From a virus, in the IMG/VR virus record IMGVR_UViG_3300025083_000162, positions 1 to 28,386 of that record: a stretch of 28,386 bases of DNA. The stretch is one strand, 5' to 3'. Under the pieces are notes generated by a model. It saw only the letters and a list, made by a program, of their open reading frames with translations, had not been told where the DNA came from and ran no database searches. Within the stretch, counting starts at the first letter, position 1; every line of letters starts with the position of its first letter. The translations under genes were made by a program, and so were the position numbers. Below, piece by piece: positions 1,697 to 15,956 of this stretch.

Positions 1697-1730
1697 AAAG
1701 CCCCGACATCACGTTGGGGCTTTATTTTTA
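1697..1730 (+). terminator. Rho-independent terminator between converging operons
   Basis: AAAGCCCC (1697-1704) pairs with GGGGCTTT (1716-1723), and GAC/GTT extends the stem to 11 bp around the loop ATCAC. The T-rich tract TTTATTTTTA follows on the + strand. The stem starts just after the stop of the DnaA-like gene and overlaps the last codons of the opposing HNH gene. It would mainly end + strand transcripts, because no good T-run follows on the - strand. Confidence 0.8.
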
Positions 1731-2203
1731 CCGTGATGCAGGACATCTACACACAGGTTAACAAATTCTTGCATGGAAAGCTTGTGCTTTGCAAAATTCA
1801 CTGCCGACGTCACTAACCAGACATTACCCATATAATAGCCGCCAGAGCTGTCTATCCTGTCGATGCTAGGTTCGTGGCCCGTGGACCCTGATCCAGCCCC
1901 TATGGTCATTATACGGCCTGTCAGGGCACATTTACCGCCCTGTACCTGCCACAGGCTAAGAACATCTTCCACGGTAATGCTGACTTCGATCTTGGCGCGT
2001 CTTTTTACACGGGCGAGTTTATTCCCGAAATAGGTTTCCAGGCTACCGTAGCGAACTTTGTATTGCTCGTGGCGGCAGGGCTTGCATCGACCATAATACT
2101 GGCCTTTGCGTTTTGGTGGTGAATGTCTTTTTAGGAATGAGTTTAACGGCTGGTAAGTTTCGCAGCCTATGCAGAAGCGTTTTTTATCGGTTTCACGCTT
2201 CAT
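1709..2203 (-). CDS. HNH endonuclease with N-terminal zinc finger
   Basis: This 164-residue protein has two CxxC pairs (C11/C14 and C40/C43) that likely bind structural zinc. An HNH-type region follows: GGKCALTG (89-96), H110, the hallmark S-I-D-R-I-D (113-118) and GNV with N127, then VN (N136) in AVNFAKHKLS. The S-(I/V)-D-R-I-D...GNV...VN pattern is typical of stand-alone phage HNH nucleases. These may act as homing endonucleases, as helpers of terminase, or in host DNA breakdown; nothing here selects one. It starts by ATGA overlap with the upstream zinc protein and is the last gene of the - strand early operon. Its final codons fall within the terminator hairpin. Confidence 0.8.
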   Translation of the reverse strand: MKRETDKKRFCIGCETYQPLNSFLKRHSPPKRKGQYYGRCKPCRHEQYKVRYGSLETYFGNKLARVKRRAKIEVSITVEDVLSLWQVQGGKCALTGRIMTIGAGSGSTGHEPSIDRIDSSGGYYMGNVWLVTSAVNFAKHKLSMQEFVNLCVDVLHHGKNKAPT

Positions 2204-5298: not shown

Positions 5299-5583
5299 TT
5301 AATCCTTTGTCGCTATTTCACCGCCGAGTGCTGTGTACCCGGCCTTATCCACCCACGAGTCTTCATGGGTAACGTCAGTTAGAAGCCGACACGTTTTGAG
5401 CCAGTCCATCATCAGTGCGACGTGTTCCGGTGTCAGCGTACCGTGTGTGTCGTAAGCTCTTTGAACGATGTGATTCCAGCCCGTGGCAATTGCGATATGG
5501 TTATCCTTAGCGTCTCCATATTGCTTAGCTCTATCACCGGTGATCAGATTCAATGCTTTATCGAGGATATCTTCCCGCGTCAT
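5299..5583 (-). CDS. DUF6378-like phage protein
   Basis: This 94-residue protein has the motif string DRAKQYGDAKDNH (17-29), LTPEHVALMMDWLKTCRLL near residues 50-68, and HEDSWVDKAGYTALGGEI. I recall this pattern from the phage family labelled DUF6378, whose members often lie beside replication or nucleotide-metabolism genes. The family's biochemical role is not established to my knowledge. The His/Asp/Glu-rich helices recall MazG-like or HD-like all-alpha folds, but this is only a resemblance. The ATG overlaps the helicase stop (ATGA) and the polymerase gene follows immediately. Confidence 0.75.
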   Translation of the reverse strand: MTREDILDKALNLITGDRAKQYGDAKDNHIAIATGWNHIVQRAYDTHGTLTPEHVALMMDWLKTCRLLTDVTHEDSWVDKAGYTALGGEIATKD

Positions 5584-7094
5584 AGATAGTAGCTCCGTGT
5601 AACGTCTTCAGGTTCAACAATATAAAGTTTATTTCTAGTCCGAGTTATCCCGACATAAAACACTCTATGGATGTCATCCGGATTAATGTTCATGTCGTCG
5701 TCTGCCGCTGGGCTGAGGTCCGTGAACAATACAACATTGTCAGCTTCCCCGCCTTTTGACCCGTGGATCGTGGATGTTGAAATGCGGGGCACCCCATTAA
5801 ACTTCTCGCCACGACGCAGCAGCGCCGTGATGTAAGCTCTCTCGCTTTCTGGGATTTTGTCAAGGGCTTCACTCCAGATCATATCCACAGTTGCAAGCAA
5901 TCCGTGTTCTGTTTGCAGGGTTTCTAGGTTAACCAAATCTTCATCGGCTAGGGCGCTCAGCTTTTTAAACCCTCGTCGTACCCGGTCCTTAGTTGACATG
6001 TAGCCGTATATCTTTCGGGCTGTTTCGCCCGTAACAGAGAAACCTTTTCGCAACTGTTCCCATCCGTTAACAGCGTTGCTGATGCCTTCGCTAATGGACC
6101 GTGTGCCGCGATGCGTGAACAGGTATCCCGAGGACTTCAAGTCTCGTGCTACGGATTGCAGGTGATATGCGGCCTGAGACAGTATAAGCCACGACCCCTG
6201 TGTCATGTCTAAGCTGGATACTGTATTTATCCGCGCCACGTTACCTTGTTCTGTCCGAGGTTCGTACCGTTTCGGGAACCGTCGATTAATTCTCTTCACC
6301 ACGTTTTCTGCAAGTTTGTGAACTTCTCCGGGAACGCGGTAGGATTGGCTGAGTGTTTCGGAACCGCCTGGCAGGTTGATGAACTCGTCTACATCGGCAC
6401 CGGCCCACCGATAGATAGCTTGGTCATCATCACCTGCGACATACATCTTCTGACTTTTCTGATCTAGTATATGAGCTATGTCCCATTGCATAGGACACAG
6501 GTCTTGCGCTTCGTCTAGGAAGGTAAGCTCGAACTGGGGACAGCATGTTTCGGATTGTTCTACGAACGCAGCGAGCATGTCGGTAAAGTCGTACAGGTTC
6601 ATCTTCTTCTTGTACTCAGTCAGGCACCTGTCCACATAGCTTACAATGTTCCAGTCAACGTCTAGGTTACTTATGTTGTACTGTTCCCGCAGGTTCACCT
6701 TCCGTAACCGCGCTAAATTGATCAGGGCTAGGATAGGATCATTAGAGCTGGAAGCAGAAACAATGTCGTTGTCGTCAGACACCTTAGACGAGCCTAAGCG
6801 AACACCGATAGCGTCCCCCAGCTCTCGGTAGCTTTCCTCTTGCATGATCTGGCTGGGTTGGATGTCCGTCATGGTCAGCGCCAAGCTATGCAGTGTTCGA
6901 AAGTACACCAGATCCTTTTTGGGATCTAAGTTGAACCGCTCAGCGGCTCGCTCTTTTGCTTCATTTGCCGCTTTCCGCGTAAACGCAAAAAAGGCTATCC
7001 GCTCCGGAGCAACTCCAGAAGACAGCGCATTGTCTACCATATTCAAAAGCGTCGTAGTTTTCCCCGTTCCGGGGGGACCAAATATTCTAAACAC
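5580..7094 (-). CDS. UvrD/Rep-type superfamily 1 helicase
   Basis: This 504-residue ATP-dependent 3'-5' type helicase has motif I GPPGTGKTT (6-14), motif Ia AFFAFTRKAA (35-44), motif II LDEAQD (193-198), motif III AGDDDQAIYRWAGA (220-233), motif IV QSYRVP (250-255), motif V STIHGSKGGE (441-450) and motif VI VFYVGITRTRNK (478-489). It is shorter than cellular UvrD (about 720) and begins right at the Walker A strand, so the N-terminal Q-motif is missing or reduced. The start is GTG 7094 and overlaps the stop of the sigma-4-like gene by 8 bases; GGGAGG lies just upstream. With PolA and primase it is the likely fork or repair helicase of the phage. Confidence 0.93.
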   Translation of the reverse strand: MFRIFGPPGTGKTTTLLNMVDNALSSGVAPERIAFFAFTRKAANEAKERAAERFNLDPKKDLVYFRTLHSLALTMTDIQPSQIMQEESYRELGDAIGVRLGSSKVSDDNDIVSASSSNDPILALINLARLRKVNLREQYNISNLDVDWNIVSYVDRCLTEYKKKMNLYDFTDMLAAFVEQSETCCPQFELTFLDEAQDLCPMQWDIAHILDQKSQKMYVAGDDDQAIYRWAGADVDEFINLPGGSETLSQSYRVPGEVHKLAENVVKRINRRFPKRYEPRTEQGNVARINTVSSLDMTQGSWLILSQAAYHLQSVARDLKSSGYLFTHRGTRSISEGISNAVNGWEQLRKGFSVTGETARKIYGYMSTKDRVRRGFKKLSALADEDLVNLETLQTEHGLLATVDMIWSEALDKIPESERAYITALLRRGEKFNGVPRISTSTIHGSKGGEADNVVLFTDLSPAADDDMNINPDDIHRVFYVGITRTRNKLYIVEPEDVTRSYYL

Positions 7095-7236
7095 CCTCCC
7101 GTATCCTTTCTATTATCTGCCGAACACGTTCCCTCGAAATATTAAATCGTTTACCAATGGCACTAAGCGTCATCCATTCGCTAGAATACAGGCGATAAAT
7201 TTCGGCGTTGCGCTTGGCATATTCCTCCTTTGTCAA
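7087..7236 (-). CDS. Sigma-70 region 4-like helix-turn-helix protein, 49 aa
   Basis: The frame starts with TTG at 7236 and ends TAG at 7087. The protein begins MTKEEYAKRNAEIYRLY, and residues 24-47 read LSAIGKRFNISRERVRQIIE and RIRE. This closely resembles sigma region 4.2 (typical E-I-G-x-x-x-x-V-S-R-E-R-V-R-Q-I), the part that reads the -35 element and contacts the RNA polymerase beta flap. No other sigma region is present. The TTG overlaps the primase stop (TTGA) with GGAG 8 bases upstream, and the end overlaps the helicase start, so the gene sits tightly in the replication operon. It could be a transcription modulator, an anti-sigma decoy, or simply an HTH DNA-binding protein. Confidence 0.75.
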   Translation of the reverse strand: MTKEEYAKRNAEIYRLYSSEWMTLSAIGKRFNISRERVRQIIERIREGV

Positions 7237-8768
7237 AACGGAGGCTCCGAACCAAAGGTTGGCGAACGAACATCCACGTCCGTGTTGTCAAAAGCAGGTA
7301 TCTGCCACACTCGGACAGATCTCGATTTGATTTTGATTACAGTACTTTCACCATTAATATCCCGTAAACGCTGGGCTATCTTGTGCATCTTGTACTCAAA
7401 AAACTTGTTTTTCTTCAGGAAAGCTTCGAAGTCTTTCAGACGGAAATAGGTCAGCGAGCTTTCTTCGTCGGTCCAAGGCTTACGTAAAAGTATCTCTTCC
7501 TTGTCCTGGGCCTGCTGCAAGTGTCGGCAGAACTCTTCCAAGTAGTCATAGAACTGGCCGCTGATAGAAGCATCTTGAGCAACTTCGATGATAGAGCTTT
7601 CATTGTCCTTCATCTCGTTCATTAGGGTGCTGATACGCCCCTCCCATTGCACTTTTGCAACGGAACGCGGCATGAAGTTCAACTGCTCCATACAAGCCTT
7701 TTGGAACGTGGGCTGATTAAGAAGAGCCTCGGTGTCTAGCTCTAAGGGTTCCCCATTCACGTCCATAAACCAAACAGGCGGCGTACTTGCATACTTCCTT
7801 AGATTAGCAATTGTTGCGCCTTGGACAGCAGATCCCACTCCGAACTTTCGGGTTCGGCACAAATCTTTGTTACAATGAGAATTAATTGGAGCGTCAGAAC
7901 ATTTATAGGCATACTCTTTCCTCTCTAGCTGTTTTGCCACCGCATTGACTTCAGACAAGGGCAGGGGCGGATCTACGTACTGCATGTTGTACGTTAATAT
8001 CTCTGATTCCCAACTATCAGGGAAAGCCTTCCGTAAGTAAACACCGATGTTAAACAAGCCATTGTTTCGGCCCCCTTCGCTGACACCATTCTTACAGAGA
8101 ATTTGTAAGCACGGTGGTCCGTCGGCCATGATCTGCGTTTCTTGAGATTGCTGAACAACCTGTAGCTTTATGACCTGCTCTTTAGTTTGGGCGTAGGTTT
8201 CATGAAGCTGAATAAATTCTTCTAGTGTTGCGGAAGTGCCATCGTCTAAGAAGGCGTATCTAAGCCCTTCCTCCGCGTTATAATACGGCAGGTTCAAAAA
8301 GTTACCCACGTCTCCCCTGTCGAGGTGCAGGACAACTTGTTTTGGAAATATCTCGCTCTCACCATAGCCCAGGGCAGCAGCCATACACTGAAGCGCCTTC
8401 TGCACATCCTTTGCTGCGACCCATTCCGTACTAAAAAGGAAAAGGTGTGCGCCACCTGACTTTGACCGGCAGACGACTAAGGGTAGGTCAAGTTTTCTAA
8501 TTTTGGCGACCAGCGCCCCGTGATCTAGCGGGTACTGATCGACGTCAATGCAACCCCACTTACACGCATTATCTTCGTTAATAGGAATGATGCCAAGGCC
8601 GTTACCTGTTCCAGACAGGTGCCGTTCCCATAGTTCCGTGGTCCGTGGTTCGCGTAGGATGCCAGCTTTGCCGGTGCTCTTACCGGAAGATGTTTGGCTC
8701 TCTATCCGAAAGTAGCCGTAAGCTTGTTGCAGCCCGTCAAAGATAGATTGAAACTTTTGTACTGACAT
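7233..8768 (-). CDS. Archaeo-eukaryotic-type primase (primase-polymerase)
   Basis: This is a protein of about 511 residues. The N-terminal AEP catalytic core has the metal-binding C-I-D-V-D (about residues 73-77), SKSGGAHLFLF (about 102-112) and GNFLNLPYYN (about 155-164). This arrangement is like the TOTE-type AEP primases of phages. Next comes a helical PriCT-like region with GGRNNGLF, then a cysteine group (C220, C225, C290, C299, C304) suited to zinc or an Fe-S cluster. The C-terminus is about 190 residues of unknown helical sequence ending SEPPF. An in-frame GTG at 8780 is possible, but the ATG at 8768 is preferred because GGAGAG lies between them at proper spacing. The TGA overlaps the TTG of the sigma-4-like gene. 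Confidence 0.88.
   Translation of the reverse strand: MSVQKFQSIFDGLQQAYGYFRIESQTSSGKSTGKAGILREPRTTELWERHLSGTGNGLGIIPINEDNACKWGCIDVDQYPLDHGALVAKIRKLDLPLVVCRSKSGGAHLFLFSTEWVAAKDVQKALQCMAAALGYGESEIFPKQVVLHLDRGDVGNFLNLPYYNAEEGLRYAFLDDGTSATLEEFIQLHETYAQTKEQVIKLQVVQQSQETQIMADGPPCLQILCKNGVSEGGRNNGLFNIGVYLRKAFPDSWESEILTYNMQYVDPPLPLSEVNAVAKQLERKEYAYKCSDAPINSHCNKDLCRTRKFGVGSAVQGATIANLRKYASTPPVWFMDVNGEPLELDTEALLNQPTFQKACMEQLNFMPRSVAKVQWEGRISTLMNEMKDNESSIIEVAQDASISGQFYDYLEEFCRHLQQAQDKEEILLRKPWTDEESSLTYFRLKDFEAFLKKNKFFEYKMHKIAQRLRDINGESTVIKIKSRSVRVWQIPAFDNTDVDVRSPTFGSEPPF
7234..7248 (-). promoter_or_regulatory. Shine-Dalgarno and TTG start, GGAGCCTCCGTTTTG
   Basis: On the - strand GGAG lies 8 bases before the TTG at 7236, inside the last codons of the primase gene (E-P-P-F-stop). 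It matches the block at 550-564 on the + strand in all but one base. It fixes the start of the 49-residue sigma-4-like gene and implies coupled translation. Confidence 0.65.
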
Positions 8769-8780
8769 TTTTCTCTCCAC

Positions 8781-8822: not shown

Positions 8823-9605
8823 TTAAAACGGAATGTCCGAGTTGTCGGAGGAGGAGTTTTCCTCATTGGCGTGTTTCACCACGACGTCTCCGGCGGAGAT
8901 GCTACTCGCAAACTCCTTGGCGCGTTTGTACATAAACGCCTCAGACACCGGACCGTCGCAAGCCATTTCCCAGCCGTGCCAGCTACCTTTAGAGTTTTCC
9001 TCAGACACCGTTTTGAGGTGATAAACGTGAGAAAAACGAGGTGGCGTGAACGGCCCGTTTTTACCTTGCATGGTCCGAGATGCGATGATCGAGTTCCACT
9101 TACGCGACTTTTTCAACTGAGTTGACTTAAGCGCAATAAGGGCTGTTTCGAACGTCCCATCTTCCTTCAGCAGCAGCACGTAATGCTGATGCGTCTCCTC
9201 AATATAATCACCGCTTCCGTCCATAACGTATTCTTTGTTATCGTCAGGAGACCGTTCAGTTTTTGGGCGAGCCTCACCGGCGTCGTAAATTTGCACAGGT
9301 GCGCCTGAACCAACACCACGAGGTGCCCACTGAATGAACCGGCGTTGATAAGCGCAAGGCACAACACGAATACCGTCTTTGCCTTTATACACTTCACCGG
9401 TCACGGTGTTATAAATGTCGCCCTTGCGAGCGACTTCGTTTGTGTCCAACACCGGGTCGTTTCCGGAGAGGACTTTGAGGAAGGGTAACGCTAGATCGTC
9501 TTGATCTAGATTCTCCATGCCGATGCCGGCATCCTCTTCAAACATGGAAGGGTCGAAAGCAGCTACTTCTGCTTTCTTGGTTTTTGCAACTTCTTGTTGA
9601 GCCAT
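8823..9605 (-). CDS. Probable single-stranded DNA-binding protein
   Basis: This 260-residue protein starts with a low-complexity charged N-terminus and DDLALPFLKVLSGNDPVLD, a pattern seen in phage proteins annotated as ssDNA-binding or recombination-associated. The central part is beta-rich with aromatic and basic residues (RFIQWAPRGVGSG, HQHYVLLLKEDG, PPRFSHVYHLKT). The C-terminus is a Ser/Asp/Asn linker ending SDIPF, which closely copies the acidic D-x-I-P-F tail by which bacterial SSB recruits partners. It lies between a coiled-coil gene and the primase gene, as expected for a replisome SSB. I do not see a canonical OB-fold signature, so the assignment rests on tail and context. Confidence 0.65.
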   Translation of the reverse strand: MAQQEVAKTKKAEVAAFDPSMFEEDAGIGMENLDQDDLALPFLKVLSGNDPVLDTNEVARKGDIYNTVTGEVYKGKDGIRVVPCAYQRRFIQWAPRGVGSGAPVQIYDAGEARPKTERSPDDNKEYVMDGSGDYIEETHQHYVLLLKEDGTFETALIALKSTQLKKSRKWNSIIASRTMQGKNGPFTPPRFSHVYHLKTVSEENSKGSWHGWEMACDGPVSEAFMYKRAKEFASSISAGDVVVKHANEENSSSDNSDIPF

Positions 9606-9606
9606 A

Positions 9607-10188
9607 TTACTTACCTTTCTTGATTACAGCTTTTTGTCCGACCCAAGCGCCGAACAATTCCATTGGAAATTCCTCTCCAAGCTCCACACGCTCTTTGACA
9701 AAAGCGCGAAGTGTCATGGGGTGGACTTCCGTTTTTTGTTGGACGTCGAAACCATTGCTTTCCGCTATTTCGCGGAACTCTTTGGCCTCAGTGTCCTCAC
9801 CTCTTCCGAACTGAGTGAAAACGGTGTTTTTGATGATGTCATCATAACCGTTGTCGCGAAGCCACCCGAAGGCGGTTTCTCGGTTCTTGACTAGGATCGA
9901 AGCCCCGTAGGTTTGCTTAATGTCTACGGTTGAACCATCGTCTAAGGTGAAGCTGGAAACTCCAACTTCGGCAAGCATTCCCGGCATATCTTCGTCGGTC
10001 AGTTTTACCAAAGCTTTTTTCGCGTCCTTCAGCTCACGCTCAAGGTGCTCAACAGTTTCTTCCTTTTGTCGGATCTCTCTAGCGAGAGCAGCTATCGAGG
10101 AAAGACCGGACTGGTCTAGCTTTTCAAGAGAGGAAGCACTGTGCTCCTCAAAGTCCTCTTCCATTTCAAAAATGAGGTTGTTTGTCAT
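9607..10188 (-). CDS. Coiled-coil phage protein of the replication module
   Basis: This protein of about 193 residues starts MTNNLIFEMEEDFEEH. A coiled coil follows at roughly residues 35-70 (LAREIRQKEETVEHLERELK), then a C-terminal domain with VGVSSFTLDDGSTVDIKQTY, FGWLRDNGYDDIIKNTV, FGRGEDTEAKE and VHPMTLRAFVKERVE. It resembles a widespread phage family of unknown function near SSB and recombination genes; I cannot name it safely. ATG 10188 is preferred over the in-frame ATG at 10248, because AAAGGAAA lies just upstream and the longer form would run into the divergent promoter region. It is the first gene of the leftward replication operon and is 1 base from the SSB-like gene. Confidence 0.7.
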   Translation of the reverse strand: MTNNLIFEMEEDFEEHSASSLEKLDQSGLSSIAALAREIRQKEETVEHLERELKDAKKALVKLTDEDMPGMLAEVGVSSFTLDDGSTVDIKQTYGASILVKNRETAFGWLRDNGYDDIIKNTVFTQFGRGEDTEAKEFREIAESNGFDVQQKTEVHPMTLRAFVKERVELGEEFPMELFGAWVGQKAVIKKGK

Positions 10189-10281
10189 TAGTTTCCTTTC
10201 GTTGTTAAAGGCATTGTTAAGCCTTGACAAAAGTAGATATAATCCCATACAACGAGAAGGTCAATCCTTTCGGAGAAAATA
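10189..10281. promoter_or_regulatory. Divergent control region: replication operon / SNF2 gene
   Basis: These 93 bases separate the leftward replication operon from the rightward SNF2 gene. On the + strand TTGTTA (10214-10219) and a perfect TATAAT (10238-10243) are 18 bases apart, a fair sigma-70 promoter. A TTGACA at 10224-10229 is too close to that TATAAT. Two TTGTTAA copies (10202-10208 and 10214-10220), and an AAGGC/GCCTT inverted pair around 10208-10225, are possible regulator sites. CGGAG lies 6 bases before the SNF2 ATG. No convincing - strand promoter was found, although one is expected. Confidence 0.5.
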
Positions 10282-11730
10282 ATGAAAGATTTTGTTTTTA
10301 AAACGCAGCCGTACGATCACCAGATGAAAGCCCTCAAAGATTCGTGGGCCGCGATCTATTACGCGCTGTTCATGGAAATGGGTACGGGAAAGACTAAGGT
10401 CGCCATTGATACAATCGGCATCTTGTATGAGCAGGGTAAGATAGACACGGTGTTAGTTATTGCACCGAAGGGGGTATACGACAACTGGGTCAAGGGGGAA
10501 ATCCCCACGCACTTGCCCGACCGCATTAAAAGAAAAGTTTATCGGTGGGTTCCTGCTCAAACAAACAAAAACAGGGCAGACCTGGACGAAATCACAGATC
10601 AACCGTTTGACGGTCTTAAGATATTTGTGATGAATGTCGAAGCCTTTTCCACGAGCCGTGGGGCGCAGGCCGCGATGGACTTCTTGAGTTTCAATCCAGA
10701 CAATATAGTTATCGTGGACGAAAGCACCACAATTAAGAACCGTACGGCGAAGCGCACAAAGAACATCGTCAAGCTAAAAGCACTGAGCAAGTACAGGCGT
10801 ATACTCACCGGCTCTCCTGTAACAAAGTCTCCGATGGACCTGTTTAGCCAATGCGCCTTCCTCGAAGCCAAAGCGTTAGGGCTAAAAAGTTTTTTTGCTT
10901 TTCAGAGCAGGTATGCAGTAATGCATGTCCAGCGAATGGGGCATCGTTCGTTCAACAAGATCACGGGCTACCGGCGATTAGATGAGCTAACGGAAAAGCT
11001 AGATAAGTTTAGCAACCGTATCCTGAAACAAGACTGTTTGGACTTGCCCGAGAAAGTTTACATCAAACGGGATGTCGCAATGACGGAGGAACAGAACCGG
11101 CTGTATCTTCAGATGAAGAAAATGGCCTTGGCTAAGCTCGACAACGGGGAGCTTTCTACTACGGCCAGTGTTTTGACGCAGATCATGCGAATGCAGCAAA
11201 TATGCTGCGGTTTTATTCAGCCCGATGAGGGCGAAATACAGCCTATCAAAAATAACCGTATGTCTCACCTTTTGGAGGTTGTTGAGGAGACGCAGGGTAA
11301 GTGTATCATTTGGGCAACATATACCCACGACATCAAAAACATCGCAGCCAACTTAGCCAAAGTATATGGCGAGGAAACGGTGGCGACCTATTATGGTGCT
11401 ACACCGCAGGACGAGCGTCAAGAAATAGTTAACCAGATGCAAGACCCAGAAAACCCCATGAGGTTTTTTGTTGGGCAAGCCCGTACCGGTGGATACGGAA
11501 TCACCCTCACACAGGCAAACACTGTTATCTATTACAGCAACAGCTACGATCTTGAGATCAGGCTACAGTCCGAGGACCGCGCTCACCGAATCGGGCAGAA
11601 GAACAACGTAACTTATGTAGACCTGGTTTGCCCCAACACTATCGATGAAAAGATACTAAAGGCTTTGAGAGACAAAAGCGACATAGCTGGGAAAGTGCTA
11701 GGCGAGGAAGCCCGAGACTGGTTGTCTTAA
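10282..11730 (+). CDS. SNF2-type superfamily 2 DNA helicase/translocase
   Basis: This 482-residue ATPase has motif I MEMGTGKTK (31-39), motif Ia LVIAPKGVYDNW, motif II V-D-E-S (145-148, in place of DEAH), motif III LTGSP (175-179), motif V QARTGGYGITLTQA (399-412) and motif VI QSEDRAHRIGQ (429-439). The Q-x-x-D-R-A-H-R-I-G-Q box is diagnostic for SNF2/Rad54-type proteins, which move on double-stranded DNA and usually remodel protein-DNA complexes. No extra nuclease or bromodomain-type module is attached. It is the only + strand gene between the replication and virion blocks. Its TAA overlaps the opposing virion gene's TAA. Confidence 0.95.
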   Translation: MKDFVFKTQPYDHQMKALKDSWAAIYYALFMEMGTGKTKVAIDTIGILYEQGKIDTVLVIAPKGVYDNWVKGEIPTHLPDRIKRKVYRWVPAQTNKNRADLDEITDQPFDGLKIFVMNVEAFSTSRGAQAAMDFLSFNPDNIVIVDESTTIKNRTAKRTKNIVKLKALSKYRRILTGSPVTKSPMDLFSQCAFLEAKALGLKSFFAFQSRYAVMHVQRMGHRSFNKITGYRRLDELTEKLDKFSNRILKQDCLDLPEKVYIKRDVAMTEEQNRLYLQMKKMALAKLDNGELSTTASVLTQIMRMQQICCGFIQPDEGEIQPIKNNRMSHLLEVVEETQGKCIIWATYTHDIKNIAANLAKVYGEETVATYYGATPQDERQEIVNQMQDPENPMRFFVGQARTGGYGITLTQANTVIYYSNSYDLEIRLQSEDRAHRIGQKNNVTYVDLVCPNTIDEKILKALRDKSDIAGKVLGEEARDWLS

Positions 11731-14700
11731 CCGCGTCCCAAGCTTCCTATTCCTTGAACAATATCGGCATTTATGTCGTTGGGGTCCGAGAAAACCCTTG
11801 CATAATCTTCTGGGTTTACAGGACCCTGTGCGGGACCCTGTAACATTGGAGACAAGGACTCGCCCATATAGTTTTGAAAATCCAAAAAGTTTTGCGTCAA
11901 ATTAGAGTAGTCTGGGACGGGCATCAAGTTTGATACTTGTGTAGGCGGCGCAACGGGGGCGGGGGCGGGTGGTTGCGGGGGTTCCAACGACTCAACCTCT
12001 CCCGAGTCCATAACGTATTGACCAACATAAGGCGCTCGACGTTGAGCTTGTCGAGCCAGTTGTGCAAAACCGTCTCCTATTATTCCCAAGTTTTGAAGAC
12101 CAGACGGACCGTCTAAGCTCTCGTTTACGCTGTTTCTAAACAGCGCGGGGTTGGACATAATATCAACCATGGCTTTGACGACATTTTCTTCGGGTCCGTT
12201 GACTAAAACATTTACGCCAAACTTAGAACCTTCGCCGGCAACGATAAGCCCAGCGGCTCCAATGCCTCCCGTGTCGAAGGGAGTTATTCTATTCAAAAGA
12301 TTACGGACGCCGCGAAGAACACCAAGAGCAACACCCGAACCCGTTGCCTTTGCGGCTAGGATAGAAGATGCGCTTGGCTCAGGGAACAAGTTTGGATCCC
12401 TGTCGCCACGCTTTAACCCGTCTTGAAGCCGGACCATTGTGTCCAAGGTGTCAGTAATGTGGCTTTCCCAGTCGGCGTCAATGATATCTTCTGATCGCAT
12501 CCAGTTCACAAGCGTCCAAGGAACCTCTTCCCCATCCACTACAACATTTACACCCTCCGCAACGTTGGCGGGACGAGAGAACAAAACGTCCTTCATCCTG
12601 CCCGGATTAAAAGCACCACTATCCAGACCCCCAGCGCGGGTTGAGGCGTGTTGCAGAACCGCGGAGACCAAGCCCTGACGAGCTAACTCCGCGTTATAGC
12701 CTTCGGGAAAAACTTCGGGATCTAGGCGCGTTAATTCAGCTAAGTCACGCAACCCGTTTTCAACGTTCCGGCTTTCTAAAATCTCAGAAACCACCAGATG
12801 TGGCGCTTTAGCAGAACCCATTACTCTGCGGAAAGTTGCTTCGTATGGTTGAATGCCTAAGTTATAATTTGCCGTTAGAGGGTTGTTAATCAACTGGTCC
12901 ACGGCATTTTGCGCGGAAGCTACGTTGTCCAAAGTTGTTTCCAGACTAGGAAACATTTTTACCATCTCAAGAAACGCGGGATCTTGCTTAAGTTTCTCTA
13001 AGGCTTCCCTTTCAACGATAAACGCAGGGCGTCCTCCCACGACAGTAAATCCTTGATCAGTCGTGGTTGGACGTAAAGACGCTGGACCTGTTTTTATTGG
13101 GTCTACCTGGTTTCGCAGCAACTTTGTCCGCAAGAAATTATAGAGTGTGTCCGTGGCAGCGTCTTGAACACTATTGTATTCATCGTCGGCACTACGAACA
13201 GTTCCGTCTATACCAACCTCAGCAAGAAGGCTTCTTCTGTTAAAATCAGCCGCGTCTAAGAGCGCTTGCAAGTTATTTGTTACCGTGGAGTACCTGCCAC
13301 CGAAAGAAGCTTCCAAAATATTTAATGGGTTCAGGACAAATTCTCCGCTGGGTCGCTGCCGCGTCATCTCACCAAAAATTTGTCTGTCGAAAAACTGGTG
13401 CATTGCATAGGTATACTGGCGAGCCGCCTCATACGCGACACTACCGGAGTTTTCTTGGCCCGTTAAATCATGCAGGATAGAGTTAGCAAAAAGACCAAAC
13501 AGGCGACGAGTATTAGAGTCTTTGGCCTCACGTTGCTCATGTCGAGCACGACTATACATTTGCGCCAACCGAGGAGAATTAACGGCCCCTGTTTCTTCAA
13601 ACTCCTCTCTAACCCGAGACACGTCTGTGTCTAACTCCGACTCTCTCAGCTTAGCTTCAAAGGTTGCAAGATTCGAGGAGGCGGTTCGTGAATCTAACGC
13701 GACTCCGTATGGGTTCCCGTTGAAACGAGCCGACGCAGGTGTGTCAAATATTTCTAATATGTTGGGCCGATCTAACGGTTCCCCTGTTTGAGCGTGAGTA
13801 AACCTAGTCAGGGTAAAGCCGGACTCGTCCACTTCTCGCCACAGCCGACTTTGTCTGTCGTTAGCTGTTTGGATTTCCCGCTCAATAATACCAAAAATTC
13901 GATCCCCTAAGTCAAAATCTTCTGGGGCATTTTGTAGATTGGGCCCGTAGATTCTTTGGGCGGCGGTATTAAAAGCCTGGATTCGTTCGTCTAAGGATCG
14001 AATGAAGCTTTCCTCAAAAATTCCTCGAAGAGCTTGAACATTTCTGGAAAGGGATTCCGGATCAGGATTAGATACGGCAAGAGACAATAATTTTTTATTG
14101 TTATCGAATGCCGTTTGACGCGCTCGGCCCGAACGTTGAGCTAAATCTTGAACTTCTCTACTAAGCTGAGCTTCAATTTCTGTTAAAACGGCAGAATTAG
14201 GCAACCGCAAACTATCCGCAAGACTTGAAACGGTTTCCCCCTCTGCAAACAAACGAACGTTTCCATCTGCGTCCAAAGTCAGGTCGTCTATGAGCTGCCT
14301 TATTTGATCGTCGCTAAATCCGGTGTTTTGTTGAAGAGTTGTTAGAACTCGTCTAGCTGCTTCTGTCCGTACGTTGGGGCTTTCCGGCGTGGCTTTCCCA
14401 AAACCCATAGCTTGTCTTCCAGCACCCAGCATTCTTCCCGCCCCGTACTTTAACAGGCCGAGCGCCGTAGCGCCTCCCGTAGCTCCAACAAGCTCCGCTA
14501 TGAGCCTTGTGCCTGCATCGTTTGGAGAAATACGCTCAGCCATTCCGGCCGCAACCCCTGCCGACGCGCCTGCGGTTAATTCGACAAGACCGAAGGTCAC
14601 AGGTGCCCCCAATGCCTGCGCGGCAGTTTGATTAATACCTTTTTCTAACGCGCTTACGGTTCTTAAAGAAAGAGGACCTTTTGTTGGATCAAACACGTAA

Positions 14701-15956
14701 CCCCCAGGAGTATACGGTATACCCAAAAACTTACTCGGCGCAGTAGGTTCACCGAACCTTGCCATGCGGGAAGAGTTCTTTGCGGCCAAGGCTTGGTTTA
14801 TTACATTTTGGGGAAGGCCCGCGTTTTCAACAATGTTTTGGATTAAACCGGGCGTACTCCTAGTGTTTCCAGACAAAGCCCTGAAGTTGTTAATAAACTC
14901 AATGGCCCCTGTGCCGCGTACCGTTTTTTCTGTGGGTCTGATGTAGTTTGCAACTCCGAGAGGGCTGATCAAACCAGCTCCCGACATAGCAGTGGTTTCC
15001 CCTGCAACGTAGTATGGCCTAAAAGATGGTAAAACAGGTTCGGGCTCGCCTTCCAAGGCTTCTTGAGCCTCTCTTCCTGCGATAGATCCAGCTATCCCGC
15101 CCCCTAGGCCCGCTAGGGTATACAAGGCCGAGGAAAGTACAGGCGCTGCAACTCCGGGAAGAGGCAACCGGCCAGCTGCGGAGGCTACGGGAGAAATAGC
15201 TTTTACGCCCCCCGCAAAGCCTGCGCCAAAGCCTAGTCCGGCTCCTATGTTTTCACGAGCGCCAGCCCCAGTAGCGCGTAATATAGTGCCGCCTCGTCCT
15301 TCATATCGCCCGAAAGCCCGAGCGTTACTTAACAACGTGATAATGGCTTCATCACTGAAGGGTCTACCCGATAAGCCTTCTCCTTGTCCCGTACGAAGTT
15401 GCTCATAGGTAAGTGTAAAAGGCGTATCCGTTTCTTCATTTAAATATTGTGCTTCGTTAACAAGCGCCCGTGCCATCAGGCTTTCGCCCGTCTCTCGGTA
15501 GTCTGGGTCTCTTTCTCTTTCTTCCCTCGCTTCTTCTCGGAGTTCACTCAATTGATCATTTAGCTGATTTGATGTGAAGGTCAGTATTCGTGAGGGTCTC
15601 AACGAAAAAAAGCTTAAGTCTTCTGGTTCGGGAAAGGCTTGTCCCTCTAAGCCATATAGTTCCGCCCTTGATTCCAAGCTCTCACCGAAAGTTGATGCTA
15701 GACCTGAGCTTACTGGATCAGGGCTACCTTGGGGATCACCCGAAGGGGCGTCGTCGCCACCACCAGACAAAAGGGCGTTAGCGGCTATCGCTGCACCCGT
15801 GCCCGCAGTACCCAGCAGCAGGTTTTTTGGTGTCGCAAGAGAAGCAATTGCTTGCGTTGCGGAAGAAGGAACTAAGTTGTCCAGATCTTGTTGGTATGGG
15901 TTACGTGACCGGCCTCCAGCGCCACCGCCGCCTGTGGACATCCTTGTTTTTTGCAT
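11727..15956 (-). CDS. Giant internal virion / DNA-ejection-type protein
   Basis: This 1409-residue protein has a Gly-rich N-terminus. It contains several Gly/Ala hydrophobic stretches, near residues 235-295 (GAGLGFGAGFAGG, LYTLAGLGGGIAGSIAG), 455-510 and around 1250 (GVALGVLRGV, GIGAAGLIVAG), and long charged helical regions between them. The C-terminus has a Pro/Ala linker (PPQPPAPAPVAPP). Large helical proteins with membrane-seeking segments at this place, beside other Ala/Gln-rich virion genes, are typical of podovirus ejection proteins that form a channel through the cell envelope. I see no lysozyme or transglycosylase motif. TAGGAG lies 8 bases before the ATG. The stop overlaps the SNF2 stop in TTAA, with no terminator between them. 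Confidence 0.6.
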   Translation of the reverse strand: MQKTRMSTGGGGAGGRSRNPYQQDLDNLVPSSATQAIASLATPKNLLLGTAGTGAAIAANALLSGGGDDAPSGDPQGSPDPVSSGLASTFGESLESRAELYGLEGQAFPEPEDLSFFSLRPSRILTFTSNQLNDQLSELREEAREERERDPDYRETGESLMARALVNEAQYLNEETDTPFTLTYEQLRTGQGEGLSGRPFSDEAIITLLSNARAFGRYEGRGGTILRATGAGARENIGAGLGFGAGFAGGVKAISPVASAAGRLPLPGVAAPVLSSALYTLAGLGGGIAGSIAGREAQEALEGEPEPVLPSFRPYYVAGETTAMSGAGLISPLGVANYIRPTEKTVRGTGAIEFINNFRALSGNTRSTPGLIQNIVENAGLPQNVINQALAAKNSSRMARFGEPTAPSKFLGIPYTPGGYVFDPTKGPLSLRTVSALEKGINQTAAQALGAPVTFGLVELTAGASAGVAAGMAERISPNDAGTRLIAELVGATGGATALGLLKYGAGRMLGAGRQAMGFGKATPESPNVRTEAARRVLTTLQQNTGFSDDQIRQLIDDLTLDADGNVRLFAEGETVSSLADSLRLPNSAVLTEIEAQLSREVQDLAQRSGRARQTAFDNNKKLLSLAVSNPDPESLSRNVQALRGIFEESFIRSLDERIQAFNTAAQRIYGPNLQNAPEDFDLGDRIFGIIEREIQTANDRQSRLWREVDESGFTLTRFTHAQTGEPLDRPNILEIFDTPASARFNGNPYGVALDSRTASSNLATFEAKLRESELDTDVSRVREEFEETGAVNSPRLAQMYSRARHEQREAKDSNTRRLFGLFANSILHDLTGQENSGSVAYEAARQYTYAMHQFFDRQIFGEMTRQRPSGEFVLNPLNILEASFGGRYSTVTNNLQALLDAADFNRRSLLAEVGIDGTVRSADDEYNSVQDAATDTLYNFLRTKLLRNQVDPIKTGPASLRPTTTDQGFTVVGGRPAFIVEREALEKLKQDPAFLEMVKMFPSLETTLDNVASAQNAVDQLINNPLTANYNLGIQPYEATFRRVMGSAKAPHLVVSEILESRNVENGLRDLAELTRLDPEVFPEGYNAELARQGLVSAVLQHASTRAGGLDSGAFNPGRMKDVLFSRPANVAEGVNVVVDGEEVPWTLVNWMRSEDIIDADWESHITDTLDTMVRLQDGLKRGDRDPNLFPEPSASSILAAKATGSGVALGVLRGVRNLLNRITPFDTGGIGAAGLIVAGEGSKFGVNVLVNGPEENVVKAMVDIMSNPALFRNSVNESLDGPSGLQNLGIIGDGFAQLARQAQRRAPYVGQYVMDSGEVESLEPPQPPAPAPVAPPTQVSNLMPVPDYSNLTQNFLDFQNYMGESLSPMLQGPAQGPVNPEDYARVFSDPNDINADIVQGIGSLGRG

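Follow-up and report, generated by a model that had tools for sequence, protein, structure and literature searches.

The window analysed here, a virus record of 28,386 bases, encodes on its minus strand a conserved 49-residue microprotein resembling region 4.2 of sigma70, in which the residues for DNA reading are conserved and those for docking on RNA polymerase (RNAP) are not. We read it as a minimal DNA-binding regulator that would occupy -35 boxes and occlude the promoter of its own replication operon, a reading that we consider plausible, if just short of probable. The gene (7087-7236, minus strand; product, MTKEEYAKRNAEIYRLYSSEWMTLSAIGKRFNISRERVRQIIERIREGV), assigned from Pfam, synteny, purifying selection, and an AlphaFold2 model, begins with a TTG codon at 7236. 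It lies between the genes of an AEP-type primase (7233-8780, minus strand), the upstream neighbour, whose stop overlaps its start by 4 nt, and of a UvrD-like helicase (5580-7094, minus strand; GTG start at 7094), the downstream neighbour, whose start overlaps its stop by 8 nt. An earlier note on this DNA had described a TTG-start frame of 49 residues with a region 4.2-like helix-turn-helix (HTH) and with ends overlapping those of both neighbours, all of which are present.

The microprotein ORF is a real gene under strong purifying selection. Relatives were first gathered by a primase-based scan of IMG/VR, in which the slot between primase and helicase held contents of several kinds, and a further scan, in which IMG/VR was queried with the HTH alignment, gave 33 loci, all 33 located between primase and helicase. 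The HTH is present in 182 of the 270 related loci with a readable primase/UvrD-helicase slot (duplicates included), and some related phages are devoid of the gene. The start codon is ATG in most relatives; the nearest other relative group has an ATG aligned at exactly the position of the TTG, which supports the start assigned in the window. Between the window and a near relative (L012), 17 synonymous changes and one non-synonymous change were counted. Pairwise dN/dS was ~0.01-0.15 for nearly all pairs (0.25 in one pair with two changes in total), several of the pairs being saturated at synonymous sites, and pooled pN/pS in five groups was 0.02-0.19. A chance ORF is ruled out by the same-slot synteny together with dN/dS. 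The orthologue between primase and UvrD-like genes that the earlier note had proposed to look for does exist, and neither of the outcomes that it had named as counting against the gene was observed, the frame being kept in the same slot and the substitutions bearing the mark of protein selection.

No near relative at the DNA level was found among named phages (bases 1-25000 compared). The nearest named phage by primase (51% identity) is the lake-metagenome phage DSL-LC04, for which 'Dishuiviridae' has been proposed (PMC10611076), and the phage group carrying the HTH gene is uncultured and mostly marine. The HTH of the window had no match in isolated phages at E 1, and the HTH of a relative, used as query, retrieved only sigma factors, hypothetical proteins, and unannotated records. 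The same slot of DSL-LC04 holds a protein annotated as 'RNA polymerase sigma-G factor' (L001:7530-7787, WJZ48105.1), which was rejected as a homologue, as it lacks an HTH, matches nothing in Pfam or NCBIfam, and belongs to another small family. Visual inspection suggests a resemblance to the MLxADGFDxA family, whose small phage proteins are often found in the primase-helicase slot and one member of which matches phrog_13182.

The likeness to sigma70 region 4 is seen in sequence searches. The microprotein scores 34.0 bits against Pfam Sigma70_r4 (PF04545; cut-off, 24.1; E 2.1e-8), and a PDB sequence search with a profile of 16 members gave region 4 of Escherichia coli sigma70 (2p7v_B; E 5.5e-6) as the top match, followed by other sigma factors. 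Sigma families also top the NCBIfam list, every one under its whole-protein cut-off because the query is a 49-residue piece. Among the best 80 cellular matches, 79 lie in ORFs of at least 171 residues, the lengths being those typically seen in complete sigma factors, and the single short ORF (L123) looks like a sigma fragment. The microprotein is itself no sigma factor, as region 2, the part of sigma that recognizes the -10 element and is the main binder of core, is absent and the whole protein has 49 residues. AlphaFold2 predicts three confident helices (residues 3-18, 24-31, and 35-47; pLDDT, 95.4), for which a Foldseek search gave no hit better than E 0.1 and thus none reaching E 0.001. In its ranking, DeoR/SorC HTHs were placed at the top, with KorA/ArdK and sigma region 4 structures close after, and the predicted fold is nearer to HTHs of the DeoR/SorC type than to sigma region 4. 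Since the fold is that of a generic three-helix HTH, the sigma 4.2 identity comes from the sequence. The ranking of DeoR/SorC and KorA/ArdK HTHs level with or above sigma region 4 would also be expected of a generic small HTH regulator that acquired its RERxRQI motif by convergence and binds an unrelated operator, as would the occurrence of SRQRxYQ, SKQRxQQ, or SRQYIFS in some relatives. This explanation is nevertheless very improbable, given that sigma factors are named first in the Pfam, NCBIfam, and PDB sequence searches and that the base-reading positions are the conserved ones.

The recognition helix of the microprotein (SRERVRQI, codons 34-41; 7114-7137, minus strand) carries Arg35, Glu36, and Gln40, aligned with Arg584, Glu585, and Gln589 of sigma70, which read the bases of the -35 element (PMC8407463); equivalents of all three readers are thus found in the window. 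In the same alignment, Arg9, Arg37, and Arg39 are placed at Arg554, Arg586, and Arg588, respectively. When 93 distinct cores of slot HTHs are compared, the position of Arg584 is occupied by Arg or Lys in 93, that of Glu585 by Glu or Gln in 93, and that of Gln589 by Gln in 87, with the position of Arg588 being variable. The residues listed for core binding (Glu555, Arg562, Phe563, Ile565, Gly577, and Leu598 of sigma70; PMC4943231) correspond in the window to Asn, Tyr, a deletion, a deletion, Gly, and Val, with Gly577 alone kept. The H5 tail, by which sigma binds the beta-flap tip (PMC2988021), is missing, and the first helix of region 4.1 is also absent. With H5 absent and most of the listed core-binding residues lost, docking on the beta flap is not supported by the residue mapping. 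Of the two targets that the earlier note had offered for a free-standing region 4 look-alike, the -35 element stays plausible and the beta flap is left unsupported.

In a wider scan, slot proteins of 115-199 residues were found. Six of the ten tested (L190:2841-3206, L207:3992-4357, L221:3977-4324, L181:2709-3308, L191:349-921, and L200:1821-2240) score above the cut-offs of two Pfam domains, Sigma70_r4 and RNA_pol_A_CTD (PF03118), and are hence fusions of a sigma region 4-like HTH with a domain resembling the C-terminal domain of the RNAP alpha subunit (alpha-CTD). The C-terminus of the L190 protein (...VRTYNCLCNENLTPMFLAEFVEYTKTNDLRRIPNLGKVSLREIK...) aligns with alpha subunits in the PDB (best E 2.9e-6) and, in comparison with the E. 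coli sequence (VRSANCLK...PNLGKKSLTEIK), retains Arg265, Asn268, Cys269, Gly296, Ser299, and Glu302, which we take to be the DNA-contact residues of alpha-CTD. An extra HTH-like stretch is found at the C-terminus of the L181 and L191 proteins (190-199 residues). The alpha-CTD of the L190 type is clear; the match of the L013 type (138 residues) is weak but consistent in Pfam, and was confirmed neither by a fold search (with a model of moderate quality) nor by a PDB sequence search. By an alpha-CTD profile built here, which includes the weaker L013 type, the domain follows the HTH in the same ORF at 61 of the 182 slot HTH loci. The protein of the window has no alpha-CTD-like domain and is no member of this fusion group, as defined here; it represents the minimal, HTH-only form. 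On the primase tree, the three states (none, HTH, and HTH with CTD) need at least 10 changes, so that the second domain has been gained or lost repeatedly; our guess is repeated loss from a fused ancestor, which is the simpler history. No description of a sigma4-alphaCTD fusion was found in the open-access literature, nor any cellular fusion in a small sample of 15 genomes, where matches cover one domain each. As far as checked, a conserved phage microprotein retaining only -35 reading and having fused orthologues is new, the sigma region 4-like HTH itself being known.

The sigma 4.2 sequence, together with the alpha-CTD domains of the relatives, which in RNAP contact DNA, sigma region 4, and activators, could also be taken to suggest that the protein is a region 4 mimic that docks on RNAP (with the alpha-CTD taking part in relatives) and blocks or redirects host transcription. 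We regard this as unlikely, for the conserved residues are the DNA readers, whereas H5, the first region 4.1 helix, and the equivalents of Glu555, Arg562, Phe563, and Ile565 are not kept.

A candidate target of the microprotein is located in front of the replication operon. The operon begins with a Pam3 gp33-like gene (9607-10188, minus strand), which probably starts at ATG 10188, preceded by a Shine-Dalgarno sequence, rather than at 10248, the position of the first ATG, inside the promoter region; a Pam3 gp34-like gene (8823-9605, minus strand; PF23977) belongs to the same operon. Terminator-like hairpins are seen between the gp34-like gene and the primase (8811-8790, minus strand) and after the DNA polymerase gene (3359-3338, minus strand). 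A gene for an SNF2-family helicase (10282-11730, plus strand) is divergently oriented. Between the gp33-like and SNF2 genes lie paired -35 boxes (TTGACC..N29..TGTCAA, 10224-10264), 35 bp apart, which would form a divergent promoter, with one box serving the replication operon on the minus strand and the other the SNF2 gene on the plus strand. This pair is the sole match in the 28-kb window, with 0 expected. In relatives, two overlapping divergent sigma70-type promoters occupy the same interval, their TTGAC(A)...TGTCAA -35 boxes facing each other, and the 35-bp spacing is found in most of those bearing the HTH. In 36 distinct sequences with this spacing from loci with the RER-type HTH, TTGAC is invariant (36/36) and TGTCAA is conserved at 97-100% by position, with variation at base six of the first box. 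On the SNF2 side, the -10 element read from the sequence of the window at a spacing of 16-18 bp is a poor one. At its predicted 5' end, the mRNA of the operon carries a leader hairpin (AAGGC..GCCTT, 10208-10225, minus strand) that is conserved in relatives, with compensatory changes in 4 of 7 pairs, and is followed on its 3' side by a conserved TTTAAc.ACGAA stretch and then the Shine-Dalgarno sequence.

The box pair was found in 29 of 31 primase clusters (90% identity) with the HTH vs 2 of 11 without it. These counts are not independent evidence, because the HTH and the boxes share a single origin on the primase tree, and only three independent pairs exist; the association is thus no proof of an operator and counts only as compatible with one. 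Two lineages (L015 and L340) have lost the HTH and kept the boxes, and one locus (L057) has the HTH and no box pair. In the L014 group, the one HTH clade in which the equivalent of Gln589 is lost, TTTACA replaces one TTGACA box, a co-change that is suggestive, L057 being a counter-example. TTGACA is the standard -35 consensus of sigma70, which means that a special reader is not required to explain the boxes, and the window as a whole shows no TTGACA excess (15 found vs 15.6 expected).

The fixed slot between primase and helicase and the position of the paired site where the replication operon begins would likewise suit a replication protein, which would bind a phage origin (possibly 10188-10282) and help to load the adjoining primase and helicase. 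It seems quite improbable, however, as what the sequence retains is a promoter reader, the site shows the full form of a sigma70 promoter in relatives, and the gene is dispensed with in related phages. A DNA-bound activator at or beside the -35 element, recruiting host RNAP to middle or late phage promoters, perhaps via contacts of the sigma4-alphaCTD type, is distinctly unlikely: the N-terminal HTH of relatives has weak similarity to the Mor/C late activators and an alpha-CTD-like domain could contact host sigma region 4, but the Mor scores are under the cut-off, and the one conserved site that was found lies over the -35 boxes themselves, where a collision with sigma is expected.

We therefore return to the occlusion of the replication promoter as the preferred reading. 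The microprotein would bind -35 boxes of the TTGAC type, first of all the pair at 10224-10264, which would place it on the divergent promoter of its own replication operon and of the SNF2 gene, in competition with host sigma70-RNAP. Reading TTGAC as sigma does and not holding the polymerase, a microprotein bound at -35 would block the latter, so that the effect on its own replication promoter would probably be repression, and transcription of the replication genes would come under delayed negative feedback or be shut off early. We infer the binding, as well as the direction and timing of the effect. A point against this explanation is that a single HTH of 49 residues may bind too weakly on its own. 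In relatives, the alpha-CTD may add a contact with AT-rich DNA beside the -35 box; the fused proteins would then combine both RNAP modules that contact the upstream promoter (-35 and UP element), without the enzyme-binding parts. It is possible, though somewhat doubtful, that the slot proteins constitute a family of phage regulators derived from the two promoter-contacting modules of RNAP (sigma 4.2 and alpha-CTD) and acting as standalone promoter occupiers, with the window encoding the smallest, HTH-only form, feeding back on its own replication promoter.

In comparison with known systems, the microprotein has in common with sigma70 region 4.2 the HTH, the recognition helix, and the equivalents of Arg584, Glu585, and Gln589, whereas the slot proteins are free-standing (47-85 residues) or fused to alpha-CTD and have neither region 2/3 nor H5. 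Unlike in the RNAP alpha subunit, the CTD of the relatives is joined to a sigma region 4-like HTH and not to the alpha N-terminal domain. YlxM (UPF0122) is likewise a small protein with a sigma region 4-like HTH, but the microprotein scores 18.0 bits against an NCBIfam cut-off of 80. The plasmid repressor KorA/TrfB has a similar HTH fold, and the cut-off of Pfam KORA is exceeded by the protein of one relative (L191); that of the window has no Pfam KORA match at E 0.001, and its 49 residues are too few to accommodate a dimer domain of the KorA type. The Mor/C late activators of phage Mu are also small HTH-bearing regulators of a phage and are weakly similar in sequence, but are longer proteins and activators, and the near relative L012 scores 18.4 bits against the Pfam Mor cut-off of 24.9. 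With T4 AsiA/MotA, the common theme is phage control of -35 recognition; AsiA binds and remodels sigma region 4 (PMC2988021), whereas in the present case the resemblance to region 4.2 lies in the phage protein itself. Elsewhere in the window, an endonuclease VII-like gene (1709-2203, minus strand) also matches phrog_4592, 'decoy of host sigma70' (E 1.5e-6), probably via the shared endonuclease fold, and a 1409-residue ORF in the structural-gene half (11727-15956, minus strand) has no Pfam or PHROG match.

Proteins that bind sigma region 4 or remodel it are a known means by which phages take control of host transcription. If the present reading is true, a stripped-down region 4.2, or its fusion with alpha-CTD, would compete directly with the polymerase for promoter DNA. 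As the proteins are small and the proposed target is short and known, the idea is testable by a few standard assays, and it provides a proposed function for a conserved gene of an uncultured, mostly marine phage group.
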